Shown here in pieces: positions 23,612 through 32,481 of a stretch of DNA of 34,034 nt. The position numbers and the translations under genes are program-made. Numbering within the stretch: the first letter of the stretch is position 1; every line of letters starts with the position of its first letter. The stretch lies in the NCBI GenBank assembly GCA_947258985.1, contig CAMYKI010000028.1, positions 1 to 34,034 on the forward strand, read 5' to 3'. The notes beneath the pieces are model-generated. The model was not told the origin of the DNA. It searched no databases and worked only from the letters and a program-made list of their open reading frames with translations. This stretch comes from an uncultured Acidimicrobiaceae bacterium (GTDB lineage Bacteria > Actinomycetota > Acidimicrobiia > Spongiisociales > UBA5794).

Positions 23612-25606
23612 ATGAAATTCATCGTTCGCAAAGGCTCCGACCCGGTGGCGAGGGCAGACTCGGCGTTGCTCGCCGCTCTTGGATTACCCGGCGGGGGCAT
23701 CGTGAGTATTGGCGCCAGTCACGTTCTGGTCAGCCCCGGCGAGACCACATCAACGAACTCGATCATGCTCGGCGAGGGCGTAATCGCCAATGCCGGGCTG
23801 GCCATCGGCGACACTGTCGACGTCAAGCGGGCGCTGCTTCCCGAAGCCCACCGCGTGACAATCTCCCGCATCGACGCAGCAATCGATGCCAGACACCTAG
23901 CCCGCTCGCTGCAGGGGTCGCCGGTGTCGGAGGGAGACTCAGTCGCCGTCAAGACCGGGTACGGTGCCGACCGCTCGCCGGAATCCGTCGCCGTAAGGAT
24001 CGTATCCGTCACTCCCGGCCCGGCGGCCGTCGTCGGTAGCCGAACGGTCGTCCACGAAGTCGGAGAGACGACAGAAGATGTCGTCGATCAACCGCCTGGC
24101 AGCCCCGCCGGCGAAGCCCCGACAACCGCCGAAGCCCTCCTCGCCGGCCTACCCACCGAAGTCGAAGTCATGACCGGCTGGCTCTCCCTGCTCACCGCAC
24201 CAGGAGACCTGCCCGACGCCTGGGGACTCCCCAAGGTCGCCGGGGTCCTTCTCGAGGGCCCCGCCGGGTGCGGAAAATCCGAGATCGTCGCTGCAGCCGC
24301 CGAAGCGGTCGACGTTTCCGTTCACGAGGTGTCGCTCGAACTGGTCTTCAAGCCGCAGAAGCTGCTCGAGCTGTTGGAAAAGGCCGTCAACAACTCGCCG
24401 CGGCCGTCGGTCATCTTCCTCGACCGTCTCGACGCAGTCGTCGGCGACGACGCCATGTTCCGCAATCAAATCGCCGCCATCATGCGATGGTTCCTCGATG
24501 CCGTTGCCGACCGGCCCCGGCTCGCGTGCGTTCTCGGTGTTTCTTCGGTAGCTCGGCTTCCCGAGGCAGTAGCCAAGTCGGCGTTTCTCCCCCGCACACT
24601 GAGCATTCCCCCGCCCGACCTCGAGCGGCGCGAGCTGCTCTTCGAGGCGGCCCTGGCCCGGGTGCCGAGCGGCGAGATCGACTATGCAGTCCTGGCGGCA
24701 CGAACCGCCGGGTTCTCCGGCGCCGACGTCATTGCTGCCGTGGTCCACGCCTCTGCCCTGGTGGCTCAAGACGGAAGCAACGTCACAGAAGAACTTCTGC
24801 TCAGGGCAGTCGAGGAAACCACCCCATCGCTCGGAACAACCTCTCTCGGAGAGATCCCCAGCTACGGCTTCGAACGGGTAGCCAACCTCGACAAGGTCAA
24901 ACAGCGCCTCACCGAATCGGTGATCTGGCAGATGCAGGAGCCGGAACGTTTCACCCGTCTCGGCATCGAGCCGCCACGCGGACTCCTTCTCTACGGGCCG
25001 CCGGGTACCGGGAAGACATTTGTAATCCGGGCTCTTGCCCACGAAAGCGGCGCTGCCTTCTTCACCATCAAGGGAGCAGAATTGCTCGACAAATACGTCG
25101 GCGAATCGGAACGGGCGGTTCGGGAGGTATTCGCCCGGGCCCGAGCAGTAGCGCCCGCAATCATGTTCTTCGATGAGATCGATGCTCTGGCGCCGGTGAG
25201 GGGCAACTCAACCAACTCGGTCACCGACTCGGTTGTGGCGGCCCTGCTCACTGAACTCGACGGGGTATCCGATCGAGGGGACGTGTTCGCCATCGGGGCC
25301 ACCAATCGGCGCGACCTCGTCGATCCGGCGTTGCTGCGGCCGGGCCGTCTTGAAACCCATCTCCATCTGGGTCTGCCGGCACCGGAGTCACGGCGGGCAT
25401 TCTTCGGCATCTCCGACGTCCCCTTCGCCGACGACATCGATGTCGATGAACTGATCGACGCTACGGAGGGCCTGTCGTTTGCAGACCTGTCCGGCTTGTT
25501 GCGCGAAGCAGCGCTCGGGGCGTTGCGCCGGGACTCCTCCGCGCTGGCCGTCACCAAGGTCGACCTCGATGCGGCCGTCGCCCACTACGAGGACCGCAAG
25601 AGCTAG
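23612..25606 (+). CDS. Cdc48/p97-like double AAA+ ATPase with degenerate first ATPase domain
   Basis: The 664-residue product has an N-terminal substrate-binding region (about residues 1-150) resembling a double-psi barrel, and then two AAA domains. Domain 1 has Walker A GPAGCGKS (K222), but its Walker B reads IFLDRLD, with R272 in place of the catalytic Glu, so it may bind ATP without hydrolysing it. Domain 2 is canonical: GPPGTGKT (462-469, K468), MFFDEID (D521, E522), ATNRRDLVDPALLRPGRLE with sensor and arginine-finger residues, then the lid. Homologues exist in actinobacteria (M. tuberculosis Rv0435c). The expected role is unfolding or disassembly of protein complexes; the partner is unknown. 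It is convergent with hisA, 8 nt apart. Confidence 0.87.
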   Translation: MKFIVRKGSDPVARADSALLAALGLPGGGIVSIGASHVLVSPGETTSTNSIMLGEGVIANAGLAIGDTVDVKRALLPEAHRVTISRIDAAIDARHLARSLQGSPVSEGDSVAVKTGYGADRSPESVAVRIVSVTPGPAAVVGSRTVVHEVGETTEDVVDQPPGSPAGEAPTTAEALLAGLPTEVEVMTGWLSLLTAPGDLPDAWGLPKVAGVLLEGPAGCGKSEIVAAAAEAVDVSVHEVSLELVFKPQKLLELLEKAVNNSPRPSVIFLDRLDAVVGDDAMFRNQIAAIMRWFLDAVADRPRLACVLGVSSVARLPEAVAKSAFLPRTLSIPPPDLERRELLFEAALARVPSGEIDYAVLAARTAGFSGADVIAAVVHASALVAQDGSNVTEELLLRAVEETTPSLGTTSLGEIPSYGFERVANLDKVKQRLTESVIWQMQEPERFTRLGIEPPRGLLLYGPPGTGKTFVIRALAHESGAAFFTIKGAELLDKYVGESERAVREVFARARAVAPAIMFFDEIDALAPVRGNSTNSVTDSVVAALLTELDGVSDRGDVFAIGATNRRDLVDPALLRPGRLETHLHLGLPAPESRRAFFGISDVPFADDIDVDELIDATEGLSFADLSGLLREAALGALRRDSSALAVTKVDLDAAVAHYEDRKS

Positions 25607-25614
25607 GGAGCCTG

Positions 25615-26328
25615 CTATCCGCGGAGCGTCGCCGCCGCCTCGGCAAACGAGAACCGGCCGTCGTAGAGCGCCCGGCCCACGATGACCGCTTCGGCGTCTG
25701 TCCTCGTCAGGGTTGCCAGGTCGTCGAGTCTCCCCACTCCGCCGGAGGCGATCAGCGCCATTTCCGGTGCCGCCTCTCGTACCGACTCGATGAGAGATAC
25801 ATCCGGCCCCGTCAGCATTCCATCGCCGGCGATGCCCGTCACCAATGCTCGCTCGACGCCGGCGGCGACAAGATCTCCCACCACGGCAGCGACGTCGCGG
25901 CCCTCGTCGCGCCATCCCGCCCCGGTGGCCCGCCCTTCTTTCACATCAATTGCAGCGACCACCGCGGCGGCACCCACCGTCGCAACGATGTCCGTCACGA
26001 CTGCCCTGTCCCATACGGCTGCGGTGCCGAGCACCGCCCGGCTTGCCCCTGCCTCGATGAGGTTCGCCGCATCCTGGAGAGATCTGATCCCGCCGCCCAG
26101 TTGAAACGGCAAACCGGTTGCCCCGAGTCGTTCCCACAACGAGCGATCGCCGGTTCCATCGCGGGCCCCGGCGAGATCAACGACATGAACAATGCGGGCG
26201 CCTTGCCCCACCCACCACGCAAGCGTTTCTGCCGGGTCCTCGGCATAGACCGTCACATCGTCGTAGCTGCCTTGCCGCAGCCGTACCACACGCCCGTCGA
26301 GAACGTCCACCGCCGGAATCACATACAC
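25615..26328 (-). CDS. hisA: Phosphoribosylformimino-AICAR ribotide isomerase (HisA)
   Basis: The 237-residue (beta/alpha)8-barrel catalyses the fourth step of histidine synthesis, the ProFAR to PRFAR isomerisation. The start reads MYVIPAVDVLDGRVVRLRQG with catalytic D8, and the second catalytic Asp is in VVAAIDVKEGRATGAGW. Phosphate-binding loops are at QLGGGIRS and ASGGVGR. Actinobacterial PriA, which also does the TrpF reaction, is a close relative; I cannot exclude that dual function. The GTG start has GGAG (26336-26339 on the plus strand) 7 nt upstream. It is divergent from the rest of the his genes, sharing a probable operator. Confidence 0.92.
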   Translation of the reverse strand: MYVIPAVDVLDGRVVRLRQGSYDDVTVYAEDPAETLAWWVGQGARIVHVVDLAGARDGTGDRSLWERLGATGLPFQLGGGIRSLQDAANLIEAGASRAVLGTAAVWDRAVVTDIVATVGAAAVVAAIDVKEGRATGAGWRDEGRDVAAVVGDLVAAGVERALVTGIAGDGMLTGPDVSLIESVREAAPEMALIASGGVGRLDDLATLTRTDAEAVIVGRALYDGRFSFAEAAATLRG

Positions 26329-26346: not shown

Positions 26347-26393
26347 TTGTATTTCTGTGCTAACGTGTTAAAACACTAGCGCATCGAACTCAA
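26347..26393. promoter_or_regulatory. Divergent his promoters with shared TTAA-centred palindromic operator
   Basis: A 22-bp imperfect palindrome at 26359-26380 is centred exactly on TTAA (26368-26371). It has outer arms GCTA/TAGC and 8 of 11 symmetric pairs. It covers the -10 of a plus-strand promoter (-35 TTGTAT 26347-26352, -10 TAAAAC 26369-26374). It also covers the -10 of a minus-strand promoter for hisA (-35 TTGAGT at 26388-26393, -10 TAACAC at 26365-26370, minus strand). The CTA...TTAA...TAG layout resembles the E. coli TrpR operator (CTAG/TTAA/CTAG), and the first plus-strand gene encodes a TrpR-family protein. I infer autoregulated control of all his genes. Confidence 0.55.
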
Positions 26394-26411
26394 CGATGAA
26401 AGGACACCGGA

Positions 26412-26723
26412 ATGGTGATGGCAAGCGACGACTGGCGCAACGACGCCACGGCTGCGCTGTTTGAAGCCGTCGTCACGCTGGAAACCCGGGACGAAGCAGC
26501 CCACTTCTTCCGTGACCTCTGCACGCGTCGCGAATTGGAGGAGATTTCGCAGAGGTGGGCGGTCGTACGCCAGCTCGGGGCCGGGCGACCTTATCGAGAG
26601 ATAGCTGCCGATACCGGTGTCTCGACCGCAACCATCGTGCGCATCAACCAATGGCTCCAGCACGGTACCGGGGGCTACCGGGCGATGCTCGACAAACTTG
26701 AAACCACCCAGGAAGAAACATGA
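26412..26723 (+). CDS. yerC: TrpR-family regulator, YerC/HisR type
   Basis: The 103-residue protein of the TrpR/YerC-YecD family has the core helix-turn-helix (ELEEISQRWAVVRQLGAGRPYREIAADTGVSTATIVRINQWL). Family members of this kind have been predicted (as HisR) to repress histidine genes in Gram-positive bacteria. Here it is the first gene of the his operon, directly beside a TTAA-centred palindrome, which fits autoregulation with histidine as corepressor (inference). The Shine-Dalgarno AAAGGA (26399-26404) lies 7 nt upstream. The stop overlaps hisG (ATGA). Confidence 0.87.
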   Translation: MVMASDDWRNDATAALFEAVVTLETRDEAAHFFRDLCTRRELEEISQRWAVVRQLGAGRPYREIAADTGVSTATIVRINQWLQHGTGGYRAMLDKLETTQEET

Positions 26724-27574
26724 CCTACCGACTTGCCCTACCCAACAAGGGACGGCTCCAGCAACCGACGGCGACCCTGCTCAAGCAGGCCGGTCTCGGA
26801 TACGAGAAGACCGACCGCGCCCTGGCAGTCCCGGTGCGCAATATGGATCTCGAGGCGTTGTTCGTCCGCACAGACGACGTTTGCGAGTTCGTTGCCGATG
26901 GTGTCGCAGATCTGGGAATCACCGGCATCGACCTGCTCAGCGAGAGCGGAACGAACCTCGAGATAATCGCCAAACTCGGCTACGGCCATTGCCGGCTCGC
27001 TGCGGCGGTGCCCAAGGCCTCCCCCATCGCCTCTCTTGAGGATCTCGCCGGAGCCAGGATCGCCACATCGCACCCGGTCACCACCCAGGCATTCTTCGCC
27101 GACAGAGAGATTCCGATCACAACGGTGCCGCTGAGTGGATCAGTCGAGGTTGCTCCCAAGCTCGACATCGCCGACGCCATCGTCGACCTCGTCTCGAGTG
27201 GCTCGACCATGCTCATCAACGGCTTGCGGCCGATTGCCGACATCATCGAATCGGAGGCGGTCCTTGTCGGTCGACCGGGAACTCTTGCAAAGACCAACGG
27301 GACGATCGCACAGGTAGTGCTCATGATGCAGTCGGTGGTTGCTGCGAGACGCAAGCGCTACATAATGATGAACGCCCCGACCACGGCCGTCGCCGACGTC
27401 GAATCCATAATCCCCGGGTTCGAAGCGCCCACGGTGATCCCGCTCGCCCACGAGGGCATGGTTGCGATTCACTCCGTCGTCGACACGGATGAACTGTGGC
27501 GAGTGCTCCCCCGCCTCAGAGAGGCCGGCGCCAGTGGAATCCTGGTTCTCCCGATCGACCAGCTGATCCAATGA
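26720..27574 (+). CDS. hisG: ATP phosphoribosyltransferase, long form (HisG)
   Basis: The 284-residue enzyme joins ATP and PRPP in the first committed step of histidine synthesis. RLALPNKGRLQQPT starts the catalytic domain, and the PRPP-binding loop is recognisable around DLVSSGSTMLINGLRPI. The C-terminal ~75 residues (KRYIMMNAPTTAVADVESIIPGFEAPTVIPL...VVDTDELWRVLPRLREAGASGILVLPI) are the ACT-like regulatory domain of the long form, so it is probably feedback-inhibited by histidine and does not need HisZ. It overlaps yerC and hisD by 4 nt each. Confidence 0.95.
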   Translation: MTYRLALPNKGRLQQPTATLLKQAGLGYEKTDRALAVPVRNMDLEALFVRTDDVCEFVADGVADLGITGIDLLSESGTNLEIIAKLGYGHCRLAAAVPKASPIASLEDLAGARIATSHPVTTQAFFADREIPITTVPLSGSVEVAPKLDIADAIVDLVSSGSTMLINGLRPIADIIESEAVLVGRPGTLAKTNGTIAQVVLMMQSVVAARRKRYIMMNAPTTAVADVESIIPGFEAPTVIPLAHEGMVAIHSVVDTDELWRVLPRLREAGASGILVLPIDQLIQ

Positions 27575-28878
27575 CCATGAATGTCAGAACCATCTACCTC
27601 GAAGAATTGGCACCTGAAGACAGGTCCGCGCTCCTCCGCCGATCTGCGGTTCCGGATCAGGAGATGCGAACGGCCGCTGCCGAAATAGTCTCCAGGGTCC
27701 GCCACGGAGGGGACGATGCGCTCCGGGCCGCCAACGACTCCTACGGAGGCGGGCGGAGCACCGGCGATTTGCGTATCGAACCGGCTGAAATCGGCCGTGC
27801 TTTGGCTGAGATCGACGTCTCGACCCGCCTCGCTCTGGAGCAAGCGATCACCAACATCCGCAAGGCCCATGAACAGCAACTCCCCCAAGACCGGACCATC
27901 GAGACCGTACCGGGCGTGACTATCGATCGTCGCTGGACCCCGCTGCGCCGCATCGGTGTCTACGTTCCCGGCGGTCGAGCCGCCTACCCGTCGAGCCTTC
28001 TCATGGGCGTGATCCCAGCCCAGGTCGCGGGCGTCGGCGAAATCGCCGTCACCAGCCCCGCCGACGATACCGGCACCGTCTCTTCGACCATGCTGGCAGC
28101 CGCGGCGCTGCTGGGAGTCGACGAGGTCTATGCAACAGGAGGGGCCCAGGCAATAGCGGCTCTGGCCTACGGCACCGAAAGCATCGAACCCGTGCAAAAG
28201 ATCGTCGGCCCGGGCAATGCGTGGGTTACCGCGGCGAAGTTGATCGTCTATGGCGATGTTGGCGTCGATCTGCCGGCCGGACCCAGCGAAGCCCTCGTCC
28301 TGGCTGACGGTACCGCCGACGCCGAGATCATCGCCGCCGATCTGATGTGCCAAGCCGAGCACGGTCCGGAATCACCAGTGGCCCTGGTCACAACCGACAC
28401 CGTGTTCGCCGAAGAAGTGATCGGACACATCGACAAGCTGCTCCCCCAACTCGAGCGCAGCGGCACCATTCGGGCGGCACTGGTCGACCACGGCCTCATT
28501 GTCATGTGCAACTCGATGGATGCCGCCATCGACTTTGCCAACGAGTACGCACCGGAGCACCTCACAATCCACACCGAGAACGCCACCGACGACGCCTTGC
28601 GCGCTACCGCCGCGGGCTCGGTCTTTGTTGGTCACTGGGCACCCGAATCCGCCGGCGACTACGCCACCGGAGCAAACCACGTCCTTCCGACCGGCGGCCT
28701 CGCTGCCGCCTATGGGCCGTTGAGCGTCGAGGACTGCGGATCATGGCGCCAGGTGCAAACGTTGTCTGAAACCGGTCTGGCCACTCTCAGACCAACGATC
28801 AGCTCGCTTGCTGAGGCGGAAGGCCTCACCGCCCACAAGCTCGCAGTCGACATTCGCTTCGAAAGGGAAGGCCAATGA
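27571..28878 (+). CDS. hisD: Histidinol dehydrogenase (HisD)
   Basis: The 435-residue zinc enzyme oxidises histidinol to histidine in two NAD+-dependent steps. Signature segments are GVYVPGGRAAYPSSLLMGVIPAQVAGV, KIVGPGNAWVTAAK, GVDLPAGPSEALVLAD and QAEHGPESPVALVT (metal and catalytic residues). GDYATGANHVLPTGGLA lies near the C-terminus. The ATG at 27571 overlaps the hisG stop (ATGA); the upstream extension of the frame is a shadow inside hisG. The next M (27577) is a possible alternative. Confidence 0.96.
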   Translation: MTMNVRTIYLEELAPEDRSALLRRSAVPDQEMRTAAAEIVSRVRHGGDDALRAANDSYGGGRSTGDLRIEPAEIGRALAEIDVSTRLALEQAITNIRKAHEQQLPQDRTIETVPGVTIDRRWTPLRRIGVYVPGGRAAYPSSLLMGVIPAQVAGVGEIAVTSPADDTGTVSSTMLAAAALLGVDEVYATGGAQAIAALAYGTESIEPVQKIVGPGNAWVTAAKLIVYGDVGVDLPAGPSEALVLADGTADAEIIAADLMCQAEHGPESPVALVTTDTVFAEEVIGHIDKLLPQLERSGTIRAALVDHGLIVMCNSMDAAIDFANEYAPEHLTIHTENATDDALRATAAGSVFVGHWAPESAGDYATGANHVLPTGGLAAAYGPLSVEDCGSWRQVQTLSETGLATLRPTISSLAEAEGLTAHKLAVDIRFEREGQ

Positions 28879-29927
28879 AGGCTCCCAAGTATCAATGGCA
28901 ACCCACAACGGCCGAAATCGCAACCGCCGCCGGCATCCCCCCGGACCAAGTGGAGCGTTTCGACCACAACACCTCCCCCTTCCCCACGGACTGGGCCCCA
29001 GCCGTAGCGATCCGTTCCCTCTCCGGGCTCAACGAGTACCCGGGTGCCGACTACCGCGGTCTCCGCGTCGCTGCAGCCGACTCGAGCGGGCTGACCTCCG
29101 ACCAGATCGTCCCCGGAGCCGGTGCCGACGAGCTCATACTGCTGTGCGGCAGGGCCTTCCTCGAACGGGGCGATACCGCCGTGGCGGCGACACCGACATA
29201 CCCGCTCTACGAGATCTCCACACTCCAGGCAGGCGGAGTATTCCAGTCGATCCCGAGCGCCTCACCGAATTTCGAGTTCCCCGCCGACGAGGTAATCCGT
29301 TCCGCCCGCGACGCCGATCTTGTGTGGATATGCACCCCCAGCAATCCGATCGGCAACACTGTTGATGACGACGTCGTCGAGGCTGCCATCGCTGCCACCG
29401 ACGGACTGGTCGTCGTTGACGGCGCCTATGCCGAGTTCGGGGATCAAGACTGGACCGAGCGTGTCGAGAGTCACCACAATCTCATAGTTCTCCGAACCCT
29501 GTCCAAGGCCTATGGACTTGCCGGGGCACGAGTCGGCTATGCCATGGCCCACCCCGACCTCGTCGCAGCAATCGACGCGGTACGGCCGCCGGGCAGCATC
29601 TCGTCGACGTCGGTCGACCTTGCCCTGGCCGCGCTGGACTCACCCTCCCAGATGCGCCGGACCGTAGCCGCCACCATCGAGAGTCGTAGTGAACTCGCTA
29701 CCCGGCTGACGGATCTCGGCCTTCGGGTCCTACCGTCGACGACCAACTTCTTGCTGTGCGAGGTGGGCCCGGAGTCCCACTCTGTCGCACAACAACTGAT
29801 CGACGTGGGCCTAGTACCGCGCAAGTTCCCCATCGACGGTCCCCTGGGGGAACACCTCAGGTTCACGGTGCGAACCGCCCCGGCTCACGACCGTCTCATA
29901 TCGGCCTTGGAAAGGTGTCTGCGATGA
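28875..29927 (+). CDS. hisC: Histidinol-phosphate aminotransferase (HisC)
   Basis: The 350-residue fold-type I PLP aminotransferase converts imidazole-acetol phosphate to histidinol phosphate. The N-terminus carries FDHNTSPFPTDWAP and LNEYPGADYRGLR. The cofactor region GAGADELILLCGRAFL, the cofactor-binding CTPSNPIGNT and the Schiff-base lysine K211 in RTLSKAYGLAGARVGYA are all present. The last residues (HLRFTVRTAPAHDRLISAL) include the usual carboxylate-binding Arg. It overlaps hisD and hisB by 4 nt each. Confidence 0.94.
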   Translation: MKAPKYQWQPTTAEIATAAGIPPDQVERFDHNTSPFPTDWAPAVAIRSLSGLNEYPGADYRGLRVAAADSSGLTSDQIVPGAGADELILLCGRAFLERGDTAVAATPTYPLYEISTLQAGGVFQSIPSASPNFEFPADEVIRSARDADLVWICTPSNPIGNTVDDDVVEAAIAATDGLVVVDGAYAEFGDQDWTERVESHHNLIVLRTLSKAYGLAGARVGYAMAHPDLVAAIDAVRPPGSISSTSVDLALAALDSPSQMRRTVAATIESRSELATRLTDLGLRVLPSTTNFLLCEVGPESHSVAQQLIDVGLVPRKFPIDGPLGEHLRFTVRTAPAHDRLISALERCLR

Positions 29928-30508
29928 AAAGAAGCTCATCTGTGCAAAGAACCACGAGGGAAACTGATGTCAGCATCACTCTGGATCTCGACGGAACCGG
30001 ACAGGTGGACATCTCGACCGGTGTCGGGTTCTACGACCACATGTTGTCCGCATTCGGACACCATGCCCTCTTGGACCTTTCGATAGCCACCACCGGAGAC
30101 CTGCATGTCGACGAGCACCACACGGTCGAAGACACTGCGCTCGTCCTCGGTTCCGCCATCGCCGACGCCATCGGGGACCGATCAGGGATCCGACGGTACG
30201 GCTCGGCGACCATCCCCATGGACGAAGCCGTGGCAACAGCTGTCGTCGACATCGGAGGGCGACCCTATGCCGTCATCGACCTGCCGTTCACGACCGAACG
30301 ACTCGGAACGCTCGGCACCCAGATGATCCCTCACGCGCTCGAGGCGTTCGCACGCAGCGCCGGGGCCACGATCCACATAACCGGCACTGGCGTCAACGAT
30401 CACCACATCGCGGAGGCTGCCTTCAAGGCTCTTGCCTATGCGGTGCGGGCGGCCGTCGAACTCGACCCACGTCGCACCGGCATCGCCTCGACAAAAGGTA
30501 CCGCGTGA
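29924..30508 (+). CDS. hisB: Imidazoleglycerol-phosphate dehydratase (HisB)
   Basis: The 194-residue monofunctional enzyme is without the phosphatase domain found in E. coli HisB. Mn-binding motifs are present: FYDHMLSAFGHHALLDL, VDEHHTVEDTALVLG and GVNDHHIAEAAFKALAYAVR. As no phosphatase is encoded in this cluster, histinol-phosphate phosphatase activity must come from elsewhere in the genome. The ATG at 29924 overlaps the hisC stop; the long open frame upstream is a shadow of hisC. Confidence 0.95.
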   Translation: MKRSSSVQRTTRETDVSITLDLDGTGQVDISTGVGFYDHMLSAFGHHALLDLSIATTGDLHVDEHHTVEDTALVLGSAIADAIGDRSGIRRYGSATIPMDEAVATAVVDIGGRPYAVIDLPFTTERLGTLGTQMIPHALEAFARSAGATIHITGTGVNDHHIAEAAFKALAYAVRAAVELDPRRTGIASTKGTA

Positions 30509-31119
30509 CCTCAGTCGCCGTCGTCGACCACGGGGCGGGCAATCTCGTGTCCATCGCTCAGGGGCTAGAGCGGGCCGGTGCTGCGGTGACCGTCACCGGA
30601 ACACCAGACGGCCTGGCCGGGGTAGATGGCGTGGTCCTTCCCGGAGTGGGCACCACAGGGGCCGCCATGCGCCGGCTAACCGCTGCCGGGTTGGTCCAAC
30701 CGCTGCGTGCCTGGGATGGGCCTCTCCTGGGCATCTGCGTCGGACTGCAACTGTTCTTCGAGCACTCCGAAGAGGATGGAACGGACGCCCTGGGACTGAT
30801 GCCGGGCCGGGTCACCCGGCTCGAGGGAGCCCCGCTGCTCCCTCATATCGGATGGAACGATGTCTCGTTCATGTCCGATCCTCTGTTCGCCGGGATACCC
30901 GAAGAAGCGACGTTCTACTTCGTTCATTCATTTGCCGTAGTGCCAGAAGACGCCGGCGCCATCATCGCCAGAACCGAATACGGAGAGTCCTTCGTTGCCG
31001 GGGCCCGCTCCAGCAATCGGGTGGGGGTTCAGTTCCACCCGGAGCGATCCGGACCCGCCGGCCTGAGGATGCTTGCTAATTTTGTCACCGCTTGCGGGGA
31101 GGCCGCGAATGCTACGTAG
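30505..31119 (+). CDS. hisH: Imidazole glycerol phosphate synthase glutaminase subunit (HisH)
   Basis: The 204-residue class I glutamine amidotransferase feeds ammonia to HisF. The nucleophile is C78 in [13 protein letters not shown]; the remaining triad members are H178 and E180 in FHPERSG. The N-terminus ([22 protein letters not shown]) is typical. The GTG start overlaps the hisB stop (GTGA), and the gene overlaps hisF by 11 nt. Confidence 0.95.
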
Positions 31120-31873
31120 GCGGGTCATCCCCTGTCTCGACGTGACCGAAGGACGGGTCGTCAAGGGCGTCAACTTCGTGAACCTCACGGACGAGGGCGA
31201 TCCCGTCGACCTCGCCGAGAGATACGTCGCTGAGGGCGCCGACGAGATCTGTTTCCTCGACATCACCGCGTCCTCCGACAACAGAACCACAATGCTCGAC
31301 GTGGTGCGACGGACAGCCGAACACGTCTTCGTCCCTCTCACCGTCGGTGGCGGGGTGCGGACGGTCGCCGACATGCGGGCAACACTGCGGGCGGGCGCCG
31401 ACAAGGTATCGGTGAACTCTGCGGCGGTACAACGACCCGATCTGATCGACGAGTGCGCCGCCGCGTTCGGCTCGCAGTGCGTGGTGCTGGCGGTTGACGC
31501 CAGACGCCGGAAGGAGACTGCGGGCTGGGAAGTCGTCATACAGGGTGGCCGCACCCCAACCGGCCTCGACGCCATCGTTTGGATCTCAGAGGCGGTGGCA
31601 CGAGGTGCAGGCGAGATACTGCTCACATCGATGGATCGTGACGGCACAAAGGACGGATACGACCTCGAACTGCTGGAGGCGGTCCGGGACGCGGTGACCG
31701 TTCCGGTGATTGCATCGGGAGGAGCAGGAACCATCGAGCACTGCGTCGATGCTCTCCAGCCGGGGCGGGCCGACGCCGTGCTGGCCGCATCGATATTTCA
31801 CAGATCGGAGATCGACATCGAAGACCTCAAGCGAGGACTCGCTTCCGCCGGACTACCCGCGAGAACATCATGA
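31109..31873 (+). CDS. hisF: Imidazole glycerol phosphate synthase cyclase subunit (HisF)
   Basis: The 254-residue (beta/alpha)8-barrel makes imidazole glycerol phosphate and AICAR from PRFAR and ammonia. The start [20 protein letters not shown] carries catalytic D11. The second catalytic Asp is in [28 protein letters not shown], and phosphate loops are at VGGGVRT and IASGGAGT. The ATG at 31109 lies inside the end of hisH; the frame's upstream opening at 31073 is not needed. It overlaps hisIE by 4 nt. Confidence 0.95.
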
Positions 31874-32481
31874 CGAGCAAGATCACGTTCGGGCAAGACG
31901 GCCTCGTCCCGGGGATCGTGCAGGATGCCACCACAGGACGGGTTTTGATGCTCGGGTACCTCAATAAGGAGAGCTTGAAGCTCACGACAGAAACGGGACG
32001 GGTCCACTTCTGGAGCCGATCCCGGTCCGAGATGTGGGAGAAGGGAGCGACAAGCGGCAACTACCTGGATGTGGTGTCGATTACCGCCGACTGTGACACC
32101 GATGCCCTTCTCATCAAAGCGCACCCCCAGGGCCCTACCTGCCACACCGGTGCCGTCGGCTGCTTCGAAGATAGTTCTCTCGGCGAGGGCTTTGCGGAGC
32201 TGGAGCGACTGTGGAGCACCATCACCGATCGGGTTGCCGCGCCCACGCCCGACTCGTATACGGCGAGGCTTGCTGCTGCCGGGCCAGATCTGACCGGCCG
32301 CAAGCTCGTCGAAGAGGCAACCGAAACACTTATCGCCGCCAAGAATCACGAAGAAGGGGGCTCGGCAGAGCGGGTCATCGAGGAGAGCGCCGACGTGGTT
32401 TATCACCTTCTCGCTCTTCTGGCAGAGCGGGGCATCCCCGCCCGAAGCGTCATCGCAGAGCTCGACAAAAGGGCGCGCTGA
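31870..32481 (+). CDS. hisI: Bifunctional phosphoribosyl-AMP cyclohydrolase / phosphoribosyl-ATP pyrophosphatase (HisIE)
   Basis: The 203-residue fusion performs steps 2 and 3 of histidine synthesis. The N-terminal cyclohydrolase (about residues 1-110) shows [32 protein letters not shown] and the metal/zinc region [26 protein letters not shown]. The C-terminal pyrophosphatase (about 115-203) shows [15 protein letters not shown] and [17 protein letters not shown], the MazG-like metal motif. The fusion differs from the separate hisI and hisE genes of mycobacteria. It is the last gene of the his operon; no terminator is evident. Confidence 0.94.

Follow-up and report, generated by a model that had tools for sequence, protein, structure and literature searches.

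A predicted HisR operator shared by divergent hisA and yerC-his genes in an uncultured Acidimicrobiaceae bacterium

Introduction

HisR (YerC) is a repressor of known type. According to the main text of the principal study, HisR regulons, their motifs, their autoregulation and their dependence on histidine have been described in the Firmicutes, Coriobacteria, Proteobacteria and Synergistetes, with the Coriobacteriales and Eggerthellales as the Actinobacteria covered (PMC9413887). The same text describes the HisR of Ruminococcus gnavus, which binds a 20-bp operator only with histidine and is the sole case in which histidine-dependent binding has been shown, and states that a TrpR dimer recognises two half-sites at a spacing of 8 bp (PMC9413887). 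TrpR dimers also bind cooperatively in tandem (PMC8745587; title of PDB entry 1trr).

Here we report a locus of the class Acidimicrobiia that shares with the HisR regulon, as presented in the main text of PMC9413887, the TIGR02531/PF01371 repressor family, the predicted control of the his genes and of hisR itself, and a 20-bp palindrome (TTTAnnnnnnTAAA in Firmicutes) whose half-sites, each centred on TA, are spaced by 8 bp. Unlike the published regulon, it has one site between divergent hisA and hisR-hisG, a consensus of its own, and outward half-sites in 8-bp phase (three to five), which do not appear in that main text. Acidimicrobiia and Chloroflexota lie outside the lineages of the main text, in which a text search found neither “Acidimicrob” nor “divergent”. 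E. coli TrpR and its trp operators have in common with the YerC system the TrpR fold, two half-sites per dimer and known tandem dimers (1trr; PMC8745587), but differ in operator sequence and pathway, and in that arrays here reach five half-sites, with seven in one promoter of hisR from another class (L198). His operons are likewise controlled by ribosome-mediated attenuators, which also differ from HisR and are seemingly used by relatives that lack yerC; they differ in being RNA-based with no repressor, and none is present in the window.

Results

The his locus and its repressor

The window, by which we mean the whole stretch of 34,034 nucleotides analysed (contig CAMYKI010000028.1), carries hisA and, divergent from it, yerC followed by hisG, hisD, hisC, hisB, hisH, hisF and hisIE. 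With hisA starting at 26328 and yerC at 26412, the gap between the divergent genes is 83 bp. The nearest named relatives of the window are metagenome-assembled genomes of Acidimicrobiia.

25615-26328, minus strand: hisA, divergent (PF00977, 204 bits; TIGR00007, E 1e-58, under its cut-off)
26412-26723, plus strand: yerC/hisR, 103-aa TrpR-family repressor (TIGR02531, PF01371)
26720-27574, plus strand: hisG (TIGR00070, 196 bits)
27496-28878, plus strand: hisD, open reading frame, true start probably near 27574 (TIGR00069, 481 bits)
28875-29927, plus strand: hisC, open reading frame with homologues within relatives' his loci
29756-30508, plus strand: hisB, open reading frame, true start probably near 29924, with homologues within relatives' his loci
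30505-31119, plus strand: hisH, open reading frame with homologues within relatives' his loci
31073-31873, plus strand: hisF, open reading frame, true start probably near 31109, with homologues within relatives' his loci
31870-32481, plus strand: hisIE (NF002747, 223 bits)

A gene for a CDC48-like double AAA+ ATPase (23612-25606) is convergent to hisA, and in many relatives it stays next to the his operon.

A sequence-only reading of this DNA had assigned the gene adjoining a proposed palindrome to the TrpR family as a YerC/HisR-type protein, and the profile scores bear this out. YerC scores 77.4 bits against TIGR02531 (cut-off 42.2), which places it in the HisR (YerC) repressor family, and 79.1 bits against the Pfam Trp_repressor model PF01371 (cut-off 27); at 27.6 bits it falls under the 67.25 cut-off of the TrpR equivalog model and is therefore not a TrpR of the E. 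coli type. The AlphaFold model of YerC (pLDDT 90.8) finds its best PDB matches in the solved YerC-like proteins 3kor, 3frw and 3g1c, with TM scores of 0.84-0.86 as against about 0.63-0.73 for E. coli TrpR entries, and by sequence the same three structures match at E about 1e-27 versus 3e-4 for TrpR. YerC is nearer to the solved HisR-like proteins than to TrpR in both sequence and fold.

A conserved dyad upstream of yerC

Three overlapping elements lie in the gap.

26359-26380, no strand assigned: the 22-bp palindrome first proposed, GCTAACGTGTTAAAACACTAGC, from the sequence and its symmetry by centre
26356-26375, plus strand: core putative HisR operator, TGTGCTAACGTGTTAAAACA (position weight matrix (PWM) score 32.3; conserved in 38/38 yerC upstream regions; sole site in the genome)
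26364-26383, centre 26373.5, no strand assigned: second overlapping register, from half-sites 26369 and 26377 (PWM score 12.4, minus strand)

The imperfect palindrome centred on TTAA is present, with 8/11 complementary pairs, but is weak by itself: the same pairing is reached at 85 centres across the window, and shuffling the 83-bp gap yields an equally good palindrome 8% of the time. Taken alone it is hardly more than chance, and the case depends on relatives.

The yerC gene is present in 38 of 60 relatives, mostly in the order hisA (divergent), yerC, hisG, hisD, and the arrangement of divergent hisA, yerC and hisG is kept across the Acidimicrobiia and in Chloroflexota. A PWM iterated on the 38 yerC upstream regions converged on a 20-bp dyad, TGTnnTArCrTGyTAaaACA, with TA at motif positions 6-7 and 14-15 in every one of them and G2, T3 and C19 nearly invariant. 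Its match in the window is the maximum there, the next unrelated match scoring 3.3. A point against the operator reading is that this particular copy of the core has only 7/10 complementary pairs. Across five species of the same genus, 24 of the 28 columns of 26356-26383 are invariant, versus 10/57 in the remaining gap.

Scanning contigs gave 80 loci, in all of which the top-scoring match anywhere in the locus, on either strand, lay just upstream of yerC; 54 of these 80 (Acidimicrobiia, Chloroflexota and others) had no overlap with the training set. The same held for 16/16 loci drawn from across the class, which partly duplicate the 80 and include a further order in which hisA is also divergent. 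True sites score mostly 15-35, two of the most distant ones 6-7. This predicted 20-bp palindromic operator is conserved upstream of the his genes and hisR, as in a HisR regulon. A sequence-only model finds a single site in the 3.6-Mb genome (93% complete assembly), and on that model the predicted operator is confined to histidine genes in this genome.

Conservation in relatives, which had been put forward as the test of the palindrome, holds for the operator with its register shifted by 4 bp. The core dyad is centred at 26365.5, to the left of the centre first proposed; across 34 non-redundant sequences, pairing averages 0.69 at this position, the maximum, and about 0.2-0.3 at most other centres. 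We consider it extremely unlikely that the element is an operator of the TrpR type with its centre on the TTAA at 26369.5 and CTA and TAG as its arms. Such an operator could point to its 8/11 pairs in the window, and symmetry about that centre is elevated in relatives as well (0.56); the conserved TGT...ACA arms and the invariant TAs are nevertheless symmetric about 26365.5, and in several relatives (for example L014, TGTTTTAGCATGTTAAAACA followed by GAGG) the core dyad is nearly perfect and the right arm is gone. As a recognition dyad, the centre at 26369.5 was rejected on the symmetry in relatives. The classical trp operator, CTAGTTAACTAG, has CTAG half-sites about a TTAA centre with a spacing of 12 bp. 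The suggested likeness to it does not survive: the CTA/TAG flanks here span 20 bp, not 12, and the conserved dyad is 4 bp off.

An array of half-sites in 8-bp phase

Additional TAs flank the 20-bp core at regular distances. Among 92 sites, one is found at +8 in 68, at -8 in 48 and at +16 in 26, and counts at most other offsets are near zero; beyond the core, TA has a frequency of 0.23 in phase and of 0.014-0.053 in the remaining seven phases. In-phase half-sites that extend the core without a break number 156, where 9.8 were expected and 20 was the maximum in 1000 flank shuffles, a figure that is not a strict probability because the 92 sites are related by descent. Runs of two, three, four and five half-sites occur at 11, 26, 35 and 20 sites, that is, three to five in 81/92.

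The window has three half-sites, with TA at 26361, 26369 and 26377, and the second register that they create scores higher than any other place in the window except the core itself. Judged on sequence, the half-sites repeat at the dimer's own 8-bp spacing, as tandem binding of the TrpR type would have it, and the three in phase are consistent with two overlapping HisR dimers. They also account for the first-proposed palindrome, which reads GCTAAC, GTTAAA and ACTAGC separated by gt and ac. The symmetry axis of the three half-sites runs through the middle one, which is the centre at 26369.5, and the palindrome is therefore a probable by-product of two overlapping dimer sites. Just two copies of the pattern TA-N6-TA-N6-TA exist in the 34-kb window, at 26361 and 33768.

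Another account, which we regard as possible but doubtful, is a 20-bp operator at 26356-26375 for a single dimer, the TA at 26377 then belonging to a promoter or arising by chance, and a second dimer never binding. It agrees with the published HisR motif, given in the main text of PMC9413887 as one 20-bp palindrome, with the far lower score of the second register (12.4 vs 32.3) and with the 11/92 sites that have two half-sites only, at which tandem binding would not apply, so that it is not universal. Against it stand the concentration of flanking TAs at +8 and -8 and the excess of half-sites in phase over the shuffles.

Comparable arrays were seen elsewhere. In family f70, from another part of the phylum, stand-alone hisR genes have three to seven upstream TAs at strict 8-bp spacing (L189, L194-L196, L198, L201, L202, L204 and L205), seven of them in L198. 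Stand-alone hisR in several other actinobacterial families showed no upstream array, so hisR is not always accompanied by one. Four phased TAs are present in the his promoter of Listeria (L215:3060-3090) and three upstream of hisR in Staphylococcus (L212:1444), while the hisR and his promoters of Collinsella have, by eye, two phased TAs only; the Firmicutes comparison consists of three records and is anecdotal. The TAs of Listeria and Staphylococcus hint at possible arrays in published HisR sites as well. We give roughly even odds to the broad proposal that HisR operators in general are 8-bp-phased TA arrays (two to five half-sites, up to seven) that load several overlapping dimers, with array length setting the strength of repression, one array switching two divergent promoters, and the published 20-bp motif being the core only.

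Promoter elements

A simple consensus scan returned one sigma-70-like promoter on the minus strand (TTAACA at 26371-26366 and AAGAAT at 26348-26343), whose -35 overlaps the site, and no sigma-70 promoter on the plus strand. There are -10-like hexamers on both strands: on the plus strand TAACGT at 26361-26366, with TGC before it, and on the minus strand TAGTGT at 26378-26373. One half of the core, TArCrT, looks like a plus-strand -10 element and the other half like a minus-strand one. These hexamers make the earlier idea of overlap with the -10 of both divergent promoters plausible, although the scan recovered the minus-strand promoter only. In either case the predicted operator would overlap core promoter elements, whose positions are uncertain.

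The site follows yerC

Relatives that have hisG and lack yerC gave no PWM match above 3.8. In family f6 (G041, G048 and G054), hisA is not adjacent to yerC; yerC has the site (L024, L030 and L031), and none was found at the remote hisA (L055-L057). Three Patescibacteria (L140, L157 and L160), whose loci gave no match to a his homologue, keep the operator before yerC. A remote hisA without the site and patescibacterial yerC genes with it indicate that the element belongs to yerC. In L160, hisS lies two genes downstream of yerC, and in L157 a PLP decarboxylase gene is next to it. One bin of family f3 (G058), which may be mixed, has two yerC genes on contigs C50 and C53, each with an operator (L006 and L039).

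The his operons without yerC, whose HisG is only 26-30% identical, have a different leader. A short open reading frame with four to six consecutive His codons, for example MHVHHHHHQSVVG or MSRRFAEFHHHHHPNRVG, lies 175-260 nt upstream of hisG (L041-L048) in 8/8 yerC-lacking relatives tested with a readable hisG start, and after most of them come a hairpin rich in G+C and a stretch rich in T. An Rfam search of these his leaders gave no match. We regard them as a candidate his attenuator in place of HisR.

It is very unlikely, in our view, that the site serves another regulator, or serves a YerC that answers not to histidine but to a different effector (tryptophan, tyrosine or an intermediate). 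Tyrosine/tyramine genes are linked with a described HisR2 branch, and the L157 site stands upstream of a yerC beside a PLP decarboxylase gene, both of which would suit this alternative. The site, however, tracks yerC itself and lies on his genes throughout the Acidimicrobiia and Chloroflexota, and the R. gnavus HisR responds to histidine, as reported in the main text of PMC9413887.

Discussion

We propose that the hisA-yerC gap very probably holds the operator of an autoregulated HisR, common to hisA and to yerC-hisGDCBHF-hisIE, with repression by the histidine-bound protein and tandem dimers. A HisR dimer would recognise the two TA-centred half-sites 8 bp apart in the core, and the third half-site, 8 bp further at 26377, would admit a second dimer in tandem on the same array. 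By analogy with TrpR and the R. gnavus HisR, we infer that YerC loaded with histidine as co-repressor would cover both overlapping core promoters, shutting hisA on one side and yerC-hisG-hisD-hisC-hisB-hisH-hisF-hisIE, its own gene included, on the other. When histidine is scarce, HisR would leave and both promoters would open.

The shared, autoregulatory operator suggested by the sequence-only reading gains support from a conserved site before yerC in all relatives whose upstream DNA could be read, and from its absence from his operons that lack yerC. Its further claim, control of the entire histidine pathway, fits hisA and the eight-gene yerC-his operon but is slightly too strong: hisN-like candidates for histidinol-phosphate phosphatase are on other contigs and the 93% complete assembly has no second site, so the predicted control may not extend to every step. 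New here are the class and phylum concerned, an operator shared by divergent genes, its corrected register and the phasing of its array.

These results extend predicted HisR control of histidine synthesis to the Acidimicrobiia and Chloroflexota, where the members found are almost all uncultured metagenome-assembled genomes, and the operator model can be used to annotate his regulons in both groups. Within one class, the exchange of HisR for a candidate His-leader attenuator offers a clean case of control replaced together with its operon. The 8-bp array suggests that, in the YerC branch, natural operators widely follow the tandem mode known from TrpR, and the sites with two to five half-sites form a natural series suited to the measurement of cooperativity.
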